Assembly: GCA_002255955.1 (NCBI GenBank)
Contig: NKIM01000003.1
Coordinates: forward strand, 124,001 to 188,000
Direction of reading: 5' to 3'
Source of the DNA: Burkholderiales bacterium PBB2
GTDB lineage: Bacteria > Pseudomonadota > Gammaproteobacteria > Burkholderiales > Burkholderiaceae_C
DNA: 64,000 bases
This document shows positions 30,573-38,660 of this stretch, piece after piece (position 1 is the first letter of the stretch; every line of letters begins with the position of its first letter). The position numbers and the translations under genes were made by a program. Under the pieces are notes generated by a model. That model did no database searches, was not told where the DNA came from, and saw only the letters and a list, made by a program, of their open reading frames with translations.

Positions 30573-32453
30573 TTGATCCACCACGCTCTGAGCCGCTGGC
30601 TGCCCCCGTCCAAGCCGGTGCGCCGGCCCTTCGAGCTGATCTACGCGGCCGATGAATGCCCGCCGCGCGGCGCCCTGGGCCTGTTGGCCTTGCAACATGC
30701 GGCCACGGTGCTGGCCCTGATCGCCCATGTGCTGGCCGCTGCCAAGATCGCGGGCCTGAGCCTGCCGCAAACCCACTCCATCGTCGCCATGACCCTGCTG
30801 GGCATGGCCATGGGCACGGCCCTGCAAGCCTGGGGCGGGCGCTGGGGCAGCGGCACCCTGCTGGTCTTCCAGCCCGACCCGATGATGATCACCGTGGCCG
30901 GCGCGGCCATCGCCAGCTACGGCCTGGGCTCCCTGGTGCAGGTGAGCCTGATCGCCGCCGGCGTCACGCTCTGCGTGGGCCCGCTGATGCGCCATCTGCG
31001 CGCCCTCTTCCCGCCCACCGTGGTGGGCACGGTGGTCTGCATGGGTGGCTTGGGGCTGGTGGAGCCGGCCATGCGCAATGCGCTTGGCATCCATGAAGCA
31101 TCAGCCGGTGCGGCCACCGGCTTGCAAACCCTGCAGATCGACGGCATCAGCGCCCTCATCGCGGGCGCGACCCTGGCCAGCATCGTCGTGCTCTCAGTCT
31201 GGGGCGGGCGGCGCTTCAAGTTGCTGGGCGTGTTGGCGGGCTTGCTGATGGGCCTGCTGATCGCCGCGCTCAGCGACCGCCTGCTTGGCCTGGAGTGGCT
31301 GCACAGCGCACCCTGGCTGGCCCTGCCGCAGCCGATTGCGCCCAGCTTCAACCTGGGCCCCGAGATCATTTTTGCCATCGTGCTGATCGCCACGCTCAAC
31401 CAGCTGGACAACATCGGCTGCCTGATCGTGATGGACAAGACCGACAACGCCGACTGGCGCCGCGCCGACATGCAGATGGTGGGCCGCGGCATCCGCGCCA
31501 ACGGGGCCAGTGATTTTCTGAGCGGCCTGTTCGGCAGCTTCCCCACCGCGCCCAGCTCGGCCAATATCGCCCTGGTGCACGCCACCGGCTCCAGCAGCCG
31601 CTACATCGGCCTGGCCTGCGCAGCCCTGCTGCTGCTGGTGGCCCTGAGCCCGCTGCTGACCATGGCGCTCACCCTCATCCCGCAAGCCGTGCTGGGCGCC
31701 ATCTCGCTCTACGCCGCCGCGTACTTGATCGTCTCCGGCATCGAGATGATCGCCACCCGCGCGCTCGACAGCCGCGGCATCTTCATGGTCGGCTTGTCGC
31801 TCTGCGCCGGCCTGGCCACCATGTTGATGCCGGGCCTGAGCCAAGGCCTGCCCGAGGGCGTGGCCATGCTGGCCGGCGATGGCTTTGTGGTCACCGGCGT
31901 CTGCGTGATGAGCCTGAACCTCTTGTTCCGCCTCGGCACCCGCTTGCGCGCCAGCTGCGAGCTGGACCCCGGTCAAGGCACTGGTCAGGGTTCGATCAAC
32001 CACCAGCTCACCGCCTTCGTCGAGCGCCAAGGCGGCGCCTGGGGCGCCCGCATGGACATCGTCCGCCGCGCCGCCCTGGCCGCGCTGGAAGCCAGCGAAG
32101 CGATCCAGGCCGCCGGCGGCGGCCGCCTGCTGGTGATCCGCGGCAGCTTCGATGAATTCAACTTCGACCTGGAGTTGCTGCACGAGGGCGAGCCGCTTCA
32201 GCTGGGGGCGTCGGCTGCGGGGTCGGGCGATGGCTCAGCGGGCGCAGCTGCAGCGGTAGAAGCGCCGCTGGATCTGGATGCGTTGATGAACATCGACAGC
32301 CCCGACGCCGACAATGCCGCTGAAATGGAACGCCAGCTCGACGCCGCCATGGCCCGCGTCTCCGGCGTCCTGATCCGGCACCTGGCCGACAAGCTCAGCA
32401 GCGCCAGCCTGGGGTCGGGGCAGGCGGTGTTGAGGTTGCATTTTGATCATTGA
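30573..32453 (+). CDS. NCS2-type permease with C-terminal GHKL-like domain
   Basis: 626 residues from TTG 30573, 12 bp after the Na/Pi gene. Residues ~20-460 are a 14-helix nucleobase-cation symporter (uracil/xanthine type) with FPTAPSSANIALVHATG near the substrate site. Residues ~475-626 are soluble and follow the pattern of an RsbW-like ATPase: a helix ALAALEASEAIQ in place of the N-box (Glu where Asn is expected), FNFDLELLHEGEPLQL, and a final VLRLHF strand. The nucleotide-binding residues appear lost. This suggests a permease with a regulatory, protein-binding tail related to the adjacent partner-switching proteins. Confidence 0.75.
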   Translation: MIHHALSRWLPPSKPVRRPFELIYAADECPPRGALGLLALQHAATVLALIAHVLAAAKIAGLSLPQTHSIVAMTLLGMAMGTALQAWGGRWGSGTLLVFQPDPMMITVAGAAIASYGLGSLVQVSLIAAGVTLCVGPLMRHLRALFPPTVVGTVVCMGGLGLVEPAMRNALGIHEASAGAATGLQTLQIDGISALIAGATLASIVVLSVWGGRRFKLLGVLAGLLMGLLIAALSDRLLGLEWLHSAPWLALPQPIAPSFNLGPEIIFAIVLIATLNQLDNIGCLIVMDKTDNADWRRADMQMVGRGIRANGASDFLSGLFGSFPTAPSSANIALVHATGSSSRYIGLACAALLLLVALSPLLTMALTLIPQAVLGAISLYAAAYLIVSGIEMIATRALDSRGIFMVGLSLCAGLATMLMPGLSQGLPEGVAMLAGDGFVVTGVCVMSLNLLFRLGTRLRASCELDPGQGTGQGSINHQLTAFVERQGGAWGARMDIVRRAALAALEASEAIQAAGGGRLLVIRGSFDEFNFDLELLHEGEPLQLGASAAGSGDGSAGAAAAVEAPLDLDALMNIDSPDADNAAEMERQLDAAMARVSGVLIRHLADKLSSASLGSGQAVLRLHFDH

Positions 32454-32498: not shown

Positions 32499-32523
32499 AC
32501 TTCAGATTTAAGGCCTGACCCTC
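32499..32523 (-). repeat. Left copy of 25-bp inverted repeat flanking the island
   Basis: On the minus strand reads GAGGGTCAGGCCTTAAAT followed by CTGAAGT. It matches the copy at 37150-37174 at 24 of 25 bases in the opposite orientation. The 4.6 kb between them contains the whole nuclease-helicase pair. Confidence 0.8.
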
Positions 32524-32549
32524 AGGCCCGCTTGACCCTCAGGCCCGCT
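32516..32549 (+). repeat. Two tandem 17-bp copies of TGACCCTCAGGCCCGCT
   Basis: Two perfect head-to-tail copies, overlapping the end of the left inverted repeat. The core TGAGGGTC (minus strand) also recurs at 37148, 38471 and 39488. Confidence 0.8.
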
Positions 32550-32971
32550 CAACTGCCCCCCGATGGCGCCCTGACGGGCTCGGCCGTTTCAACCTCAAGT
32601 TGGGCGATGACCGTGCTGTTGCGCGCGGCCTGCGGCAAATCGAAACGAAGGCTGAGTGCCTGAGCGCCCTGGGCCCAAACCAGGGCCAGCGTCGAGGACC
32701 ACGAGTGCTTGTTGTTGAACTTCAAGGATTTGCTCCCTGTCTGATGCATAGCCAAAACGTCGTCGCAGAGTTGATAGGGCCTTAAGATTCAGGACATGAC
32801 TCTCGCGCCTGGATGACCCTCGCGCCTTGCTCGCGACTCGCGATGCTAGAAAGGTCAAACCGCAGGCGGCGGATGCGCAATCGGCTTGGCTTCAACACCG
32901 ATCTCGGTTTCCCAAAGGTACACTAACCGTAAAAATTATCGGGGTTCCACGAGGAGCTGGGAGGTGGTCAT

Positions 32972-33745
32972 ATGGCGATTACTCTGACGGCATTCACCGA
33001 TCAGGCGAAGTGGGAGGGCTGTACTTGGAGCGTGCCCTCTGTAGACGAGTTGGCAAACGCCATTGCCATCATCGCGGTGGGCCAGGCTCTTCATGTCGCC
33101 AAGATCTTGCACGGCGCAGGCATTGCAGGTAAGCCCACTACAAAGGGGGCGATCAAGGGAGCTACAAGGCTCCTCACTTCGTCTGGCAATATCGCTCACA
33201 GGGATGGCTGGATGTTTCAGGTCATGTCTTGGCTCGCCGCTCAGTTGCGCACCCCGGGTGCGTTGATGAACACGCCACACATGATTCACGCCCACAAGGG
33301 CTTGGATGGACTCCAAGTGTCCATCGACGGAGCCGATAAGGTGACTGCCGTCGTTCTCTTCGAGGACAAGGCGACTGAGAACCCTCGGTCCATGGTGCGC
33401 GATAAGGTCTGGCCCGAGTTCGCGGAATTCGAGACTGGTGAGAATGAGCACCTTATCGCCGCAGAGGTAGCTCTGCTCCTCAACAGAGCTGGGCATTCTG
33501 ACCCGCAGCAGGCGGTGGCTGACGTCATGTGGAGTCAGGTCCGTCGATATCGCCTGAGCATTACAGCCGAGCAAAGCACCGAAGAGACTCAGAGCCAGCT
33601 CTTCAAAGGGTACGAGAGGATTGTTCCTGGCGAGGCGATTCGCCGGCGCGCTGAAGTCTTCGAAGTGGTGAACCTTCGCAAGTGGATGGACGACTTGGCA
33701 ACGTTGGCCATCAAGAAGGCAGAAGCGTTGGCAACTTCCGACTGA
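32972..33745 (+). CDS. Hachiman HamA / AbpA-like predicted nuclease
   Basis: 257 residues from ATG 32972, behind a strong GGGAGGTG site. The central part fits a PD-(D/E)XK nuclease core: Asp112 in [13 protein letters not shown], then a hydrophobic strand [12 protein letters not shown] with Glu131 and Lys133. Size, this core and the large helicase gene 10 bp downstream match the HamA (DUF1837) + HamB and AbpA + AbpB antiphage systems, where the nuclease is released to degrade DNA when the helicase meets phage DNA. Codon use and lower GC differ from neighbouring genes, suggesting transfer. The family assignment comes from architecture; overall similarity could not be measured. Confidence 0.65.
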
Positions 33746-33755
33746 GAGCTACCTA

Positions 33756-36700
33756 GTGTTTGATGATCCAACTTCGGAGCTCATTCGCTCTGCCCCAGAA
33801 CTGTCTGGCCTTGACCCCAACTCCCTGCCCAAAGCGCTAACAAAGGCCTACGCGGAGATTGTTGCGGTGCGGCTTCGCCTCCGAAAAATCTCTGGTGGTT
33901 CATCCAACGCTGCTGATTTGCTGGCCCCACTGCAGCCCGAACTCCAACGACTCAGGAAAATTGCCTTTACCCAGGAGGCTATGGCCTCTGTGAGCTCTGA
34001 AGGTCCTCAGCGGCGCGGCGCAGCCTTCCTCGCAGCGACAGCGCACTACGTTACCTTGCAGGCGCAGCTCCTTGCGAGCCCTACTAGCCCCGATAAGTTC
34101 GGCCCGCTTACGGTCGGCGGAATTGCGCCTGAGGTCTCGGCGACGCTCTTGTTCCTTGCCGCTGGAGCTAGCCCTGACGCTGCTGAAATGTCTCGCCAGA
34201 TTCAGCTGTCTGATGGCTTGTTGCCTTTGGAGCGCAGGCTCTTGCAGGATATCAAGCGGTTGGCTATCGGTGACCTTGACGCGCTGCTCGCTGATTCGTC
34301 CGTCCCGGAGCCTCCATCTTTGGAGGGCGATTTCACTTTGGCCGAAGTCGGCGCTAGTGCTCTTTATCTGATGCTGCACCGTTGCGTTCGAAGCATCGCT
34401 GCCGAGGTGCTGGGGCGTCCAGGCTATCAGGCGTCATCAGTGGAGCTGGAGCGTGTTGAAGGGTTGTGCACAGAGCCGGCCGTGCAGTTCCTGAATCGAC
34501 TTGGCAACAGCGCCTTCCCTGGACCTCGTCACCTGGCGTCTTTGTTGAGGGCCGTTGGCCGCGAACTACCGGCTGACAGCCTTGCTCGTCTGCCAGCGCC
34601 ACCAGGCATCGGCACTTCGCTTTGGATTTCGGGCCTGACGCTGATCGCGAAAACTAGGCCATATCTTTGGGCGAATCACCGAGATGCCGTTGCACAGGGC
34701 TACCTGGCGCCCGGGGTATCGGCTGCGATCAGCTTCCCTACTGGGGCGGGGAAATCGACACTTTCCGAGCTAAAGATTCTTTCGAACTTGTGTCTGGGAA
34801 AGGACACCATCTTTCTCGCTCCCACGTTGGCGCTCGTCGACCAGACCGCGCGTGCACTTCAGAAGGCCTTTCCTGATGCGCGACTGAGTCGTGAGCGGGC
34901 AAATGACAACCCGTTCGACTTTGAACTGGGCACCCGACTGCCGCCGATGTCGGTGATGACGCCGGAGCGTTGCTTGGCGTTGATGGGGGTGCAGCCGGAG
35001 CTTTTCAAGGAGGTCGGCTTGCTCGTGTTCGACGAGTGCCACCTGCTACACGCCGGTGTGAACGACCGCAGCAGACGCGCTATTGATGCGATGCTTTGCA
35101 TACTGAACCTTTCCACACAAGCGCCCGCGGCGGACTACTTGCTACTCTCGGCCATGATGAGCAATGCCGAAGAGGTGGCGGCTTGGATTGCCGAGCTCAC
35201 GGGTCGAAAGTGCTTGCCATTGAACATGGCGTGGAAGCCGACGCGGCAAGTACGTGGTTCCGTGGTCTTCCCCAGCGACCAAATCGCTGATTTGCGCAGC
35301 AAACTTGAGGCCAAGCGCCAGGAGTTGTTAGCCGCCGGTAAGCGCAAGTCTGGGCCGTCGGCCGCGCTTAAGCGCGAACTCAAGGCACAGCCGCTTGGAC
35401 TTCTTGGGCTCAAGTTCAAATGGGACTCGATGCTGCGAGATGACTACTTGTTGGTGCCGCTATCTGACAGTGAGATGCTTTTATCGGTAAATGCGACGAC
35501 ATGGCGGCTAACGCCGAATGTGAACAGCGTGGCCGCGGAGCTTGCATCGCTAGCTTCCCGCAACAAGGGGGTTAAGTCGCTCATCTTCGCGCAGACGATC
35601 CCGTACGCTATGAGTGCTCAGGAAGCCGCAGGAAAGCATCTTGGTGAGGCAAACATCGCTCTGACGGTAGAAGAGCGACACCTGTATAGCCTTGCGCTCG
35701 ATGAGTTGGGGGACGAATCTGCACTCTACGTCGATGTCGTCGCAGGGCGGGTCGCTCGGTGGCCTAGCCTCTGTCACCACGGGCTGCTTCTTCCGACTGA
35801 GCGGCAACTACACGAGTCGCTCTTTCAGCGTCCGGACGGAGTGTCCGTACTTGTTGCTACTTCAACTTTGGCTCAGGGAATGAACCTTCCAAGCCATGTC
35901 GTCATCATCGCCGGCGACAGCAAGTTTGATGCGGAGAATAAGCAGCTTGCTCAGATGAAGGCGCATGACTTGCTCAACGCTGCTGGTCGGGCTGGGCGGG
36001 CCGGCCAGAGCTCTTACGGACTTGTGCTGGTGGTTCCGAGTAACGTCGTGGAGATCAACGATTCCAACAGTCAGATCGGCAAACACTGGAAGAGCCTTCA
36101 AGGCATCTTCTCGCAGAGTGATCAGTGCCTTGCCATAGAAGACCCGCTTGAGGGCATCCTTGACCGAATCCAAGAACTTGGTGCGGACGCGGGAGGCGAC
36201 GCGGACTACCTAATGCGTCGGCTTCCAATCTCGACACAGGCCGCAGATGTCGATGGCCCAGCCAAGACGCTTTTGATGAAGTCATTCGCAGCCTACAAGT
36301 GGAGGAAGCAGGCGCAGGAACGCCAAGTGAATGACCGGATCAACCATGTGCTTCTTGCTCGCAGGAAGCTTCAAGAGTTGGATGAGGAGCCCGGCTGGGC
36401 CGACAAAATGGCCGCGAACTACGGCGTACCGTCGGATGTGTTTAGCGAACTGGGGGCACGCCTTGAGACGTCGCCTCCTATCGGGCGAACGACGTTGGAT
36501 TGGTTCACGTGGACAGTGACCTGGTTGACTGAGCGACCCATCCTCCTCTCACAGATGATCAGGCGCGAGAGCTTGGATGGGTTCATGGGCGAGAAGTTCA
36601 AGTTGTGTGGGGACGACAAGGAGCGGGGTGAGCTCGCAGTTGGCGACGTGCTGGCCGCGCTGAAGTTGTGGGTCAGTGGACAGACGCTGGCGGAGATTCA

Positions 36701-37082
36701 GAAGCTGAAGACCACTGCCCAAAAGCCAAAGCACTTTGAGCAAGCGCGACGCTTTGCGCTACGGGTTCTGCCCGAACTCGCCTACCTTTTCTCTCTACCC
36801 GAGCTTGTGCGCCGACACTTAGCTGCGGAAGAGCACGCCTTGAGCATGGGAGAGCTCGCTTCCGTCGAACTCGAGAAGCTCGGAAGCTGTGTTCGCGAGG
36901 GCTATGACACCGTTGAGAAGTTGGCGCTGGGGAAAGTCCGCGGTAAGACAACCTCTCGAGTGGGTGTTCATCGTCAGTGGGGTGAGATTGACTGGTGGAT
37001 GGCTCCCAAGGTGTCCGGCGAGACCTGGCAAGAATTGTTCGAACGAGTCAAGCTCAGTACTGATGTCTACGACCAAATGTGA
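33756..37082 (+). CDS. Hachiman HamB / AbpB-like SF2 DECH helicase
   Basis: 1,108 residues from GTG 33756. A ~320-residue helical N-terminal domain without clear motifs precedes an SF2, Ski2-like helicase core: Walker [10 protein letters not shown] (327-335), [11 protein letters not shown] (motif Ia), DECH at 426-429, LLSAMMSN (motif III, usually SAT), [12 protein letters not shown] (motif V) and [11 protein letters not shown] (motif VI, ~741-751). The last ~330 residues are helical. It would move on nucleic acid and control the nuclease encoded just upstream. Gene order nuclease-helicase, sizes and lower GC all fit a Hachiman-type defence island. Confidence 0.75.
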
Positions 37083-37149
37083 GTTCTGCCTTCATGCAGG
37101 CCCGCCATCTGGGCGAGCTGCTCCTCGGAAACAATCAAGAGGCCGGCGT

Positions 37150-37174
37150 GAGGGTCAGGCCTTAAATTTGAAGT
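37150..37174 (+). repeat. Right copy of 25-bp inverted repeat flanking the island
   Basis: Reads GAGGGTCAGGCCTTAAAT followed by TTGAAGT on the plus strand, 24 of 25 identical to the inverse copy at 32499-32523. Confidence 0.8.
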
Positions 37175-37220
37175 CCGTGACGACCCCAGGAGCTTCTCCA
37201 CAGCTACCCACAAGAATGAT

Positions 37221-37238
37221 GGTCAGGCCTTAATTTTG
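37221..37238 (+). repeat. Partial third copy of the junction repeat
   Basis: GGTCAGGCCTTAATTTTG matches the core of the 25-bp repeat (first 13 bases identical) in the same orientation as the copy 50 bp upstream. Confidence 0.65.
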
Positions 37239-37242
37239 CTCA

Positions 37243-38043
37243 TCAAGCCGCGGCTTCCAGCACCGCACGGGTTTTGGCGTCGGCCGGGAAGACATGCTCC
37301 ACCCGCAGCGAGGCCAGCGTGATGTCTTGCGGCGTGCCGAAGGTGGAGAACATGCTGAAGAAGGCCAGTTCGCCGTGGACGGTGGCGAAGCGGGTGGTCA
37401 AGACCGGGGCCAGTTGGCGCGTCCAGGGCGCCAGCGTTTGGCCGCCCAGGCGCGCTTGAAACTGCGCCGCCAACTGCTCCACACGGGGTAGCAACTCGGG
37501 CACGACCGAGGCGTCGTCGCGCAGATGGGCCAGCAGGGCGGGGGCCACTTCGTCCAGATTGCTGATGTGGCGGCTCATGCCTTCGGGGTGCAGCAGCAGG
37601 TCCAGCATATTGAGGCTCTGGCCCGGTGGCTGCCCGGCCAGCCAGGGCATCAGCGTCAGCGCCATCCAGCGGGCGCCTTGGTTCATTTGCAAGATGTTCC
37701 AGCCGGCGTCCATCACCATGGCGGGCAGCGGGTCATGGGCCGCCAGCATCAGCGTCAGGGCCTCGCGCACCGGCGCCAGCACCGCCGCGCCCAACTCATT
37801 GCCGCTGTAGGCGGCGGCAAAGCCGGCTTGTTGCAAGACGGTGTTGCGCAGGGCCAGCGGCGCTTGCAGCTCCTGCAACCAGGCCAGCAGCAGCTCACGG
37901 CTGGCCTGGGCCCGCCCGCTCTCGACAAAGCTCACATGGCGCTGGCTCACCCCCAGGCGCAAGGCCAAGTCCAGCTGACTGATGCGGCGCGCCTTGCGTG
38001 TGCTTTGCAGGGTTTCGCGAAGTGAGGGGCTGGCGGCGAGCAT
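37243..38043 (-). CDS. XRE-family regulator with MmyB-like ligand-binding domain
   Basis: 266 residues. Helix-turn-helix at ~8-65 (LRETLQSTRKARRISQLDLALRLGVSQRHVSFVESGRA). The C-terminal part (~100-262) matches the MmyB/MLTR ligand-binding family, a PAS-like fold thought to bind fatty-acid-like or other small molecules (PAMVMDAGWNILQMNQGA, TRFATVHGELAFFSMFSTFGTPQDITLASL in two pieces). It is divergent from a small membrane protein gene, which is a likely target. High GC returns here, so it belongs to the host backbone and not to the island. Confidence 0.85.
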   Translation of the reverse strand: MLAASPSLRETLQSTRKARRISQLDLALRLGVSQRHVSFVESGRAQASRELLLAWLQELQAPLALRNTVLQQAGFAAAYSGNELGAAVLAPVREALTLMLAAHDPLPAMVMDAGWNILQMNQGARWMALTLMPWLAGQPPGQSLNMLDLLLHPEGMSRHISNLDEVAPALLAHLRDDASVVPELLPRVEQLAAQFQARLGGQTLAPWTRQLAPVLTTRFATVHGELAFFSMFSTFGTPQDITLASLRVEHVFPADAKTRAVLEAAA

Positions 38044-38173: not shown

Positions 38174-38473
38174 ATGAACAAGCCCGTGTTGATCGTCGTG
38201 CTGCTGCTCTTCAGCGCTCTGAGCCTCTACGCCGTGCAGCATGCCGGCGGGGTGCTGGAGTTGGTGCAAGTGCTGCTGCGCATCCCCGAGGGTTGGCAGG
38301 TGATGGCCGATCTGATCATCGTCATGGTCTTGCTCTTGGTCTTCATGCGCCGCGACGCGCAAGCCCAGGGGCGGCCGTTCTGGCCCTGGGCGATCTTCTC
38401 GCTGGTGGTGGGCTCCTTCGGGCCTTTGCTCTACTTCATCACCGCGCGCCGCAAGCCCGAGAGTGGGGCATGA
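38174..38473 (+). CDS. Small three-helix membrane protein (DUF2834-like)
   Basis: 99 residues from ATG 38174, with GGAAGGAAAC upstream. Three membrane helices: VLIVVLLLFSALSLYAV, ADLIIVMVLLLVFMRRDA and WAIFSLVVGSFGPLLYFI. The FMRRDA...FWPW...GSFGPLLYF pattern resembles DUF2834 proteins of unknown function. It is 130 bp from the divergent XRE gene, so the two probably share a regulated intergenic region. Confidence 0.7.
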   Translation: MNKPVLIVVLLLFSALSLYAVQHAGGVLELVQVLLRIPEGWQVMADLIIVMVLLLVFMRRDAQAQGRPFWPWAIFSLVVGSFGPLLYFITARRKPESGA

Positions 38474-38495
38474 GGGTCGGGCTTTCAAATTGAAG
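38471..38495 (+). repeat. Diverged copy of the junction repeat
   Basis: TGAGGGTCGGGCTTTCAAAT then TGAAG: similar to the 25-bp repeat with a few substitutions and an extra base. It follows the stop of the small membrane protein gene, so the repeat family is not confined to the island edges. Confidence 0.55.
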
Positions 38496-38660
38496 ACCCC
38501 TAGATCCTTGGCTGAGTTCCCAGCATGACCCGCCCCCCCTTGTGCATCGAGTTTCCCTGCGCCGGGTAGCAAATCAATGCATGAGGCGATTGGCGCAAGC
38601 CCATCTTTGAACCCGACGAGCTTGTGAGCCCGCGCCGTGCTCGCTGGGTATCATGCTTCG

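Follow-up and report, generated by a model that had tools for sequence, protein, structure and literature searches.

A gene pair of low guanine-plus-cytosine (GC) content in Burkholderiales bacterium PBB2 raises two linked questions: what a putative nuclease and helicase encoded side by side would do for the cell, and why they lie between two short inverted repeats. We examined the pair within 64,000 nucleotides of contig NKIM01000003.1 (positions 124,001 to 188,000; hereafter the window, with positions counted from its first nucleotide). Our analysis, which leans on predicted structures and on analogy with HamAB, indicates with a probability of roughly 80% that the two genes make up a Hachiman-type defence system belonging to a divergent lineage. 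Short inverted repeats wall the chromosomal slot in which the pair is carried as cargo, and the cargo of this slot varies by strain.

A preliminary description of this DNA, made from the letters alone, had reported open reading frames (ORFs) of 257 and 1,108 residues spaced 10 bp apart, and these coordinates and lengths were verified (Table 1). It had also reported a composition unlike that of the surroundings, and this is borne out: the nuclease and helicase genes have GC contents of 57.8% and 58.4%, as compared with 69% and 68% for the two flanking genes, and GC at third codon positions (GC3), by which codon use was judged, is likewise lower (69% and 66% versus 90% and 87%). Over the nuclease/helicase stretch GC is 58%, and in its flanks 66%. 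A likely ribosome-binding site (GGGAGGTGGTCATATG) lies upstream of the nuclease ATG, and apart from the two genes the ORF list contains only short or overlapping frames between the inverted repeats. The ends previously assigned to the region, 32499 and 37174, proved to be the exact outer ends of a 33-nt inverted repeat, the repeat itself having gone unmentioned.

The residues singled out earlier in the nuclease, Asp112...Glu131-x-Lys133, were confirmed and are conserved without exception in 22 of 22 aligned sequences and in 19 of 19 of a wider, overlapping sequence set; R77, D78, G79 and W87 are among the other positions invariant in both alignments. Structure prediction with comparison to HamA had been proposed as a check, and the AlphaFold model (mean predicted local distance difference test score, pLDDT, 89.9) found Escherichia coli HamA (8vx9_A) as its best match in the PDB, with an expect value (E) of 9.4e-6, probability of 1.00, template-modelling (TM) score of 0.65/0.65, root-mean-square deviation (rmsd) of 5.5 and 12% identity. 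This was the sole match with E<=0.001 among 628; its alignment to the HamA chain of 259 residues spans 268 columns.

The helicase points the same way. Both the GAGKST and the DECH motif are present, in agreement with its original labelling as a DECH helicase, and three HamB chains head the PDB list for its AlphaFold model (pLDDT 82.1) with E of 1.8e-22 to 8.1e-22 and query TM scores of 0.62-0.64 over 1220-1254 alignment columns; the next match, Hel308, reaches a TM score of 0.45. PADLOC HamB profiles match 17 of 17 aligned helicases, with the best stretches in the helicase core, and profile-profile comparison of the new-kind and HamB helicases gave probabilities of 99.7-100% over that core. 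The likeness to HamB suggested at the outset is upheld. In a tree of 27 helicases, for which the program warned of long branches, a branch with support of 96/100 separates the 16 helicases of the new kind from the others. These 16 were chosen from those fetched and were joined by 10 HamB rows drawn from 13 HamA loci, leaving out G619 and G741 (not refetched) and L155 (no frame found). Given that HamA profiles miss the nuclease and that the helicases cluster apart in the tree, the pair is probably a Hachiman variant outside the reach of HamA profiles, consistent with the initial suggestion of a new nuclease subtype.

We then considered the setting of the pair. The left and right repeats of the window, 33 nt in length, are 91% complementary. 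Repeat ends in this genome were found by pattern searches with up to 3 mismatches and, in one case, by a local scan, and ten of them were used to build a model, R1, whose ten strong matches here are those same ends. At E<=1e-4 these matches fall in six places: two in the window, three on C26, two on C27 and one each at C2, C56 and C83:244 kb. GC drops over the inner 1 kb (mean difference 0.096) at all ten good copies, and inner GC is also lower for two weaker ones in the C26 and window slots. Matches at E<=1e-4 occur in 4 of 150 family genomes, including this one, and several genomes of the genus have many. Among neighbouring repeat matches in the genus (E<=0.001, 0.3-8 kb apart), 12 of 18 are convergent (p 2e-4; 9 of 14, p 0.002, with our own genome left out), and convergent pairs are lower in GC inside in 13 of the 15 examined (10 of 12, p 0.005, on the same exclusion). 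For single ends, the figure is 35 of 48, these being 50 of 73 matches at >=20.9 bits minus two with short flanks.

Comparison with sister genomes supports the existence of exchangeable repeat-bounded slots in the genus. Four slots are common to several genomes and have cargo that is unlike between them (Table 1). In eight listed junctions, though not in all junctions, homology stops within 0-15 bp of a repeat's inner edge. Cargo between repeats in this and sister genomes includes a Gabija pair (GajA 1.3e-238, GajB 1.6e-210), a two-piece DRT-type reverse transcriptase with a SLATT protein, GmrSD-type proteins, RES and HEPN_RES domains, a SIR2-like protein and a kinase, and the G002 permease slot holds an FRG protein of candidate system PDC-S15. 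At E<=1e-5, 27 cargo proteins yielded 173 PADLOC matches and 35 flanking proteins 9, these tallies being of families and not of proteins, from frames picked by eye among ORFs of 100 amino acids or more. Details of cargo come from 25 of the 173 families, with assignment of proteins to matches inferred except at L117 and assignment to cassettes partly inferred.

Five further low-GC, repeat-edged cargo stretches were seen in this genome (L080 on C26, L081 on C2, L082 on C56, L083 at C83:237-252 kb and L084 on C27), with cargo that includes a 969-residue TIR/SEFIR-like protein and a 689-residue ATPase-like protein (both by eye), together with a tentatively assigned RES/HEPN-type gene. Elsewhere, a lone long frame stands between convergent repeats at L125 2241-4568 (776 residues) and L121 2328-4448 (707 residues), and both are candidate defence genes. 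On C40 of G007 (L130 1-4000), a row of small ORFs with the similar start M-R/W-I-W-G-x-W-T-A-S-L-G, accompanied by two repeat copies, is reminiscent of an integron-type cassette array. The HTH gene of G009 has about 180 bp of its 3' end duplicated (L069 7059-7238 and 8159-8338), with a PIN7-domain gene between the two copies.

A number of observations weigh against such slots or limit the case for them. Searching this genome with R1 detected no further strong copy beyond the ten training ends, and only a single repeat end was found at C2, C56 and C83:244 kb. Pattern hits at C26:12714 and C32:14175 lack a lower inner GC (0.65 v 0.64 and 0.69 v 0.57), GC inside the cassette is raised in L127 and L128 and nearly equal in L126, and 13 of the 48 single ends do not follow the trend. 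The orientation and GC tests were chosen after the pattern had been noticed, and among the 15 convergent pairs, three (L120, L123, L124) include at least one end that falls short of E 0.001. For L123, homology resumes about 45 bp past the right repeat, a repeat for which no counterpart was found in the corresponding slot of this genome. The right wall of the permease slot varies among genomes, no left repeat was found for this slot in G002, and some cargo (TauD, Lcl_C, PEP-CTERM) is not defence-like.

These exceptions bear on whether the repeats act or are passive. Homologous recombination between the conserved flanking genes could swap the content of a slot, with the repeats forming its inner margin and no recombinase acting on them, and we consider the odds of this to be even. 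Between sister genomes, the DNA on either side of a slot is about 84-96% identical for long distances, enough for flank-driven replacement; the G002 permease slot and the single ends at three of the six places in this genome fit with passive repeats, as do relatives of the cargo that occur in other genera without the repeat. Conversely, passive repeats do not readily account for the lower inner GC of all ten good copies, for the arrest of homology near the repeat in several independent slots or for the convergence of 12 of the 18 neighbouring copies in the genus. A simple transposon was rejected, as no transposase was found between the repeats and a target duplication was not established: Y1_Tnp, the one transposase profile run on the short frames between the window repeats, had no match there.

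A RAYT gene provides a possible agent. In G007, beside the permease slot, a RAYT gene called by sequence (L124 3991-4869) lies between two copies of the repeat in inverted orientation. The nearest RAYT in this genome, the Y1_Tnp locus L061 (C83:55707), shares 52% identity with it and has only a weak repeat match beside it (11.3 bits). In another genus, a RAYT 65% identical to that of L124 adjoins a repeat copy; these are the only two places with RAYT matches among 64 loci scanned. We also observed a second copy of the 3' end of the permease gene (L124 4904-5031) beside the G007 RAYT. The alignment of repeat ends contains no GTAG, eight ends folded as DNA gave z scores of +0.42 to -2.68 and showed no consistent hairpin, and ten copies at E<=1e-4 in a genome is not a high copy number. 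We therefore refer to the repeat as RAYT-associated, and not as a repetitive extragenic palindromic (REP) sequence, because a GTAG head is lacking and no consistent hairpin was seen.

From these associations a tentative and rather doubtful model can be drawn, in which the pair belongs to a collection of interchangeable ~1-5 kb cassettes spread through the genus, many with defence systems, that are in effect giant REPINs. A RAYT, as a single-strand HUH transposase, would recognize the convergent repeats in trans and move or exchange defence systems between fixed slots; that RAYT moves the cargo is a step we hold to be questionable to the same degree. Among the titles listed in our literature search, none joins RAYT or REPIN repeats with defence. 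If the model is true, RAYT elements gain a role in immune turnover. To our knowledge, the benefit of RAYTs to their hosts is an open question, and one that becomes testable if a RAYT acts on these borders.

Returning to the identity of the pair, several findings count against a Hachiman-type assignment. The window nuclease (P0001) has no match among Pfam profiles. Pfam HamA (PF08878, DUF1837) matches 2 of 22 and 2 of 19 members of the two nuclease alignments with a best E of 0.011, and the PADLOC HamA profile 1 of 22 (E 0.0034); the proposed profile search for DUF1837/HamA thus failed for the window protein in both databases. With hhalign, the probability was 5.9% against 13 HamA sequences and about 4% or less against subsets of them, and profile-profile comparisons with HamA in several groupings, both local and global, gave nothing significant. 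The catalytic D and E-x-K fall in register with HamA in one hhalign alignment, itself of negligible probability (3.7%). A TM score of 0.65 with an rmsd of 5.5 is moderate. The HamA motif has been written as D-GEXK (PMC12799240), and its G never precedes E131 in our alignments, where this residue is F in 12, S in 7 and C in 3 of 22 sequences and F in 11, C in 6, S in 1 and Y in 1 of 19. Finally, the window helicase scores 109.9 bits with PADLOC HamB and 108.2 bits with candidate PDC-M23B. A PADLOC Cas5_IIIh match to P0001 (17 bits), its only match to a PADLOC profile, was seen in 1 of 22 members and was taken as chance, as were weak PDB sequence matches of the nuclease (DMIP13, a nucleotidyltransferase fragment, beta-xylosidase and 14-3-3).

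The pair may instead represent a separate helicase-nuclease defence family, for example of the PDC-M23 kind, that converged on the HamAB architecture or anciently shares it, and whose trigger (RNA, modified DNA) and target of cleavage may be different. The near-equal helicase scores and the failure to join the nuclease to HamA by sequence would fit with this, as would a sequence search of the PDB with the helicase, which places eukaryotic Ski2-like helicases first and HamB twelfth, and the long stem of the new-kind helicase clade (2.47 changes per column). However, the stems of the other HamB groups sampled range from 2.14 to 3.93, and both chains independently match E. coli HamA and HamB best by a clear margin, making a separate family unlikely.

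The distribution of the pair is that of an acquired gene set, as the preliminary description had supposed: the nuclease profile matches 3 of 399 family genomes, our own counted, and sister genomes have other content at the slot. A close helicase was likewise found in 3 of 399 genomes of the order (own genome counted), with G613 having a nuclease upstream of it. A pattern scan of genome contigs (genome_contigs) yielded 23 loci that encode a nuclease relative, all of which we take from their titles to be from Pseudomonadota. The helicase lies directly downstream in 21 of these, with L014 ending at a contig edge and the nuclease being interrupted in L033. Relatives also occur in 11 plasmid records; in 8 of 8 records opened the nuclease relative is followed by a helicase, seen as a frame or an annotation, though seemingly broken in L073 and split in L077. 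From the genome counts and this adjacency, we conclude that the pair is accessory, rare and seldom separated. A role in DNA repair or housekeeping is highly improbable, for although Hel308, second to HamB in the fold search, is a repair helicase, 396 of 399 family genomes lack a nuclease match, six of the 11 plasmid records are typed conjugative and the Beijerinckia plasmid relative has a short prokaryotic Argonaute (pAgo) pair and TIR genes alongside.

Phage records contained no nuclease relative at E<=0.01, and 1 (L163) of 47 pattern-matched stretches of viral contigs encodes one; its identities to both proteins equal those of L015, so it is probably the same sequence. Orthologues at L011, L017, L036, L038 and L085, with about 78-81% DNA identity, match the window only within 32938-37083, and therefore the repeats did not travel with the pair. 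Pfam-recognized HamA with an adjoining helicase occurs in genus members G006 (L034, 113 bits) and G003 (L035, 112 bits), so both kinds are found in the genus. The Ruegeria homologue (L033 10001-10500) is broken after about residue 119 by a transposase-like frame (by eye). In G415, comparison with L017 reveals ~1.4 kb (L038 2284-3683) immediately preceding the nuclease that includes an IS4-like transposase frame (by eye) and is apparently accompanied by a 9-bp duplication. Shewanella plasmid pSA70-3 (L073 6061-12468) carries its nuclease relative and apparently broken helicase a few kb from predicted resistance genes.

In HamAB, according to PMC12278908, the helicase restrains the nuclease on intact DNA, DNA damage activates it and all DNA of the cell is degraded. 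A similar mechanism is our best guess for the Hachiman-type pair, because the same parts are present with conserved D, E and K. By this analogy, the helicase would ride along DNA while holding the nuclease inactive; infection or damage would expose 3' single-stranded DNA, on which ATP-driven movement of the helicase would activate the nuclease; D112, E131 and K133 would then cut DNA regardless of its origin, and the cell would die before the phage spreads. Complex formation, the trigger, DNA cutting, cell death and an antiphage effect are thus features that we infer for the pair, as is movement of the cargo for its slot.

This Hachiman-like lineage is missed by the HamA models used and surfaced through folding only. 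The window protein is unmatched and the best E, for one relative, is 0.0034, which suggests that these models lead to an undercount of such systems. The repeat offers a way of finding defence cargo through its borders instead of its neighbours, and since some systems between repeats are already known, the unassigned cargo of the same slots forms a list of candidates.

Table 1. Features of the nuclease-helicase locus and of related slots. Positions are those of the window unless a contig (C), genome (G) or locus (L) is named.
Feature	Position	Strand	Evidence or remark
Xan_ur_permease-family gene, left slot wall	30573..32453	+	ORF, family assignment, sister-genome alignment
Left inverted repeat (RAYT-associated repeat end)	32499..32531	+	R1 34.9 bits; one of the ten ends behind R1
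Two 17-nt tandem units, inner side of left repeat	32513-32546		
HamA-like nuclease gene	32972..33745	+	ATG to TGA, 257 residues; D112...E131-x-K133; ORF list, alignment, AlphaFold model
HamB-like Ski2-type superfamily 2 (SF2) helicase gene	33756..37082	+	GTG to TGA, 1108 residues; motifs, profiles, model, tree
Right inverted repeat	37142..37174	-	R1 37.1 bits; one of the ten ends behind R1
Weaker further repeat copy	37217..37238	-	13.6 bits; homology to two sister genomes resumes there
Helix-turn-helix (HTH) regulator gene	37243..38043	-	right slot wall in this genome, G002 and G009
5' remnant of RAYT gene, decayed repeat in front	38465..38654	+	75% DNA identity to L124 3931-4109
Repeat beside G007 RAYT	L124 3933-3963	-	
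Repeat beside G007 RAYT	L124 4852-4877	+	overlaps RAYT stop codon
Shared permease slot	this window; G007, G009, G015, also G002		
Shared slot	C26 here; C397 of G002		
Shared slot	C27 here; C12 of G009		
Shared slot	C83:244 kb here; C272 of G002; C1:538 kb of G009		AraC-like gene (by eye) at one wall

Of the known systems, Hachiman (8VX9) is the closest in its two genes and their order, its fold as compared with the full-length predicted folds, its D...E-x-K residues and its Ski2-like helicase. The pair differs in that the nuclease is below Pfam and PADLOC HamA detection and the helicases are in a clade of their own, in the residue preceding the catalytic E (F, S, C or Y, where the HamA motif has G), and in an HRDG(W) helix motif where the HamA sequences examined have G/S-E/D-x-G/A-E (a correspondence drawn by eye). 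The preliminary description had named Hachiman and AbpAB together; fold and gene order agree with HamAB, whereas AbpAB identity is ruled out by size and domain content. AbpA-AbpB also combines a nuclease with a Ski2-like helicase, and is proposed in PMC12278908 to be a Hachiman variant with an extra nuclease domain: AbpA there has an additional N-terminal Cap4-like nuclease domain and a HamA-like C-terminal part with inactive residues. The nuclease described here has no Cap4-like domain, is 257 residues long as compared with 565 for AbpA chain 8zue_A, and has its D, E and K intact. With PDC-M23B, the comparison rests on the helicase side, where its profile scores 108 bits over the core; P0001 matches no PADLOC profile but Cas5_IIIh.

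The borders of the cargo resemble RAYT-REP elements in that the G007 RAYT stands between two inverted repeats, just as rayt genes are described in PMC2817692 as always flanked by two inverted REPs. They resemble REPINs, which PMC3116915 describes as inverted REP doublets with short spacers, in that the repeats are in inverted pairs. The differences are the missing GTAG head, the lack of a consistent hairpin among the eight folded ends, the ten good copies in the genome and the 0.9-5 kb of cargo between repeats, as against common REPIN spacings of 71 or 110 bp (PMC3116915). The slots themselves, whose cargo edges have a common repeat of ~30 nt, share with the defence hotspots of E. coli and Pseudomonas aeruginosa (PMC10121019, PMC10250203) a fixed chromosomal place filled with strain-specific defence cargo.

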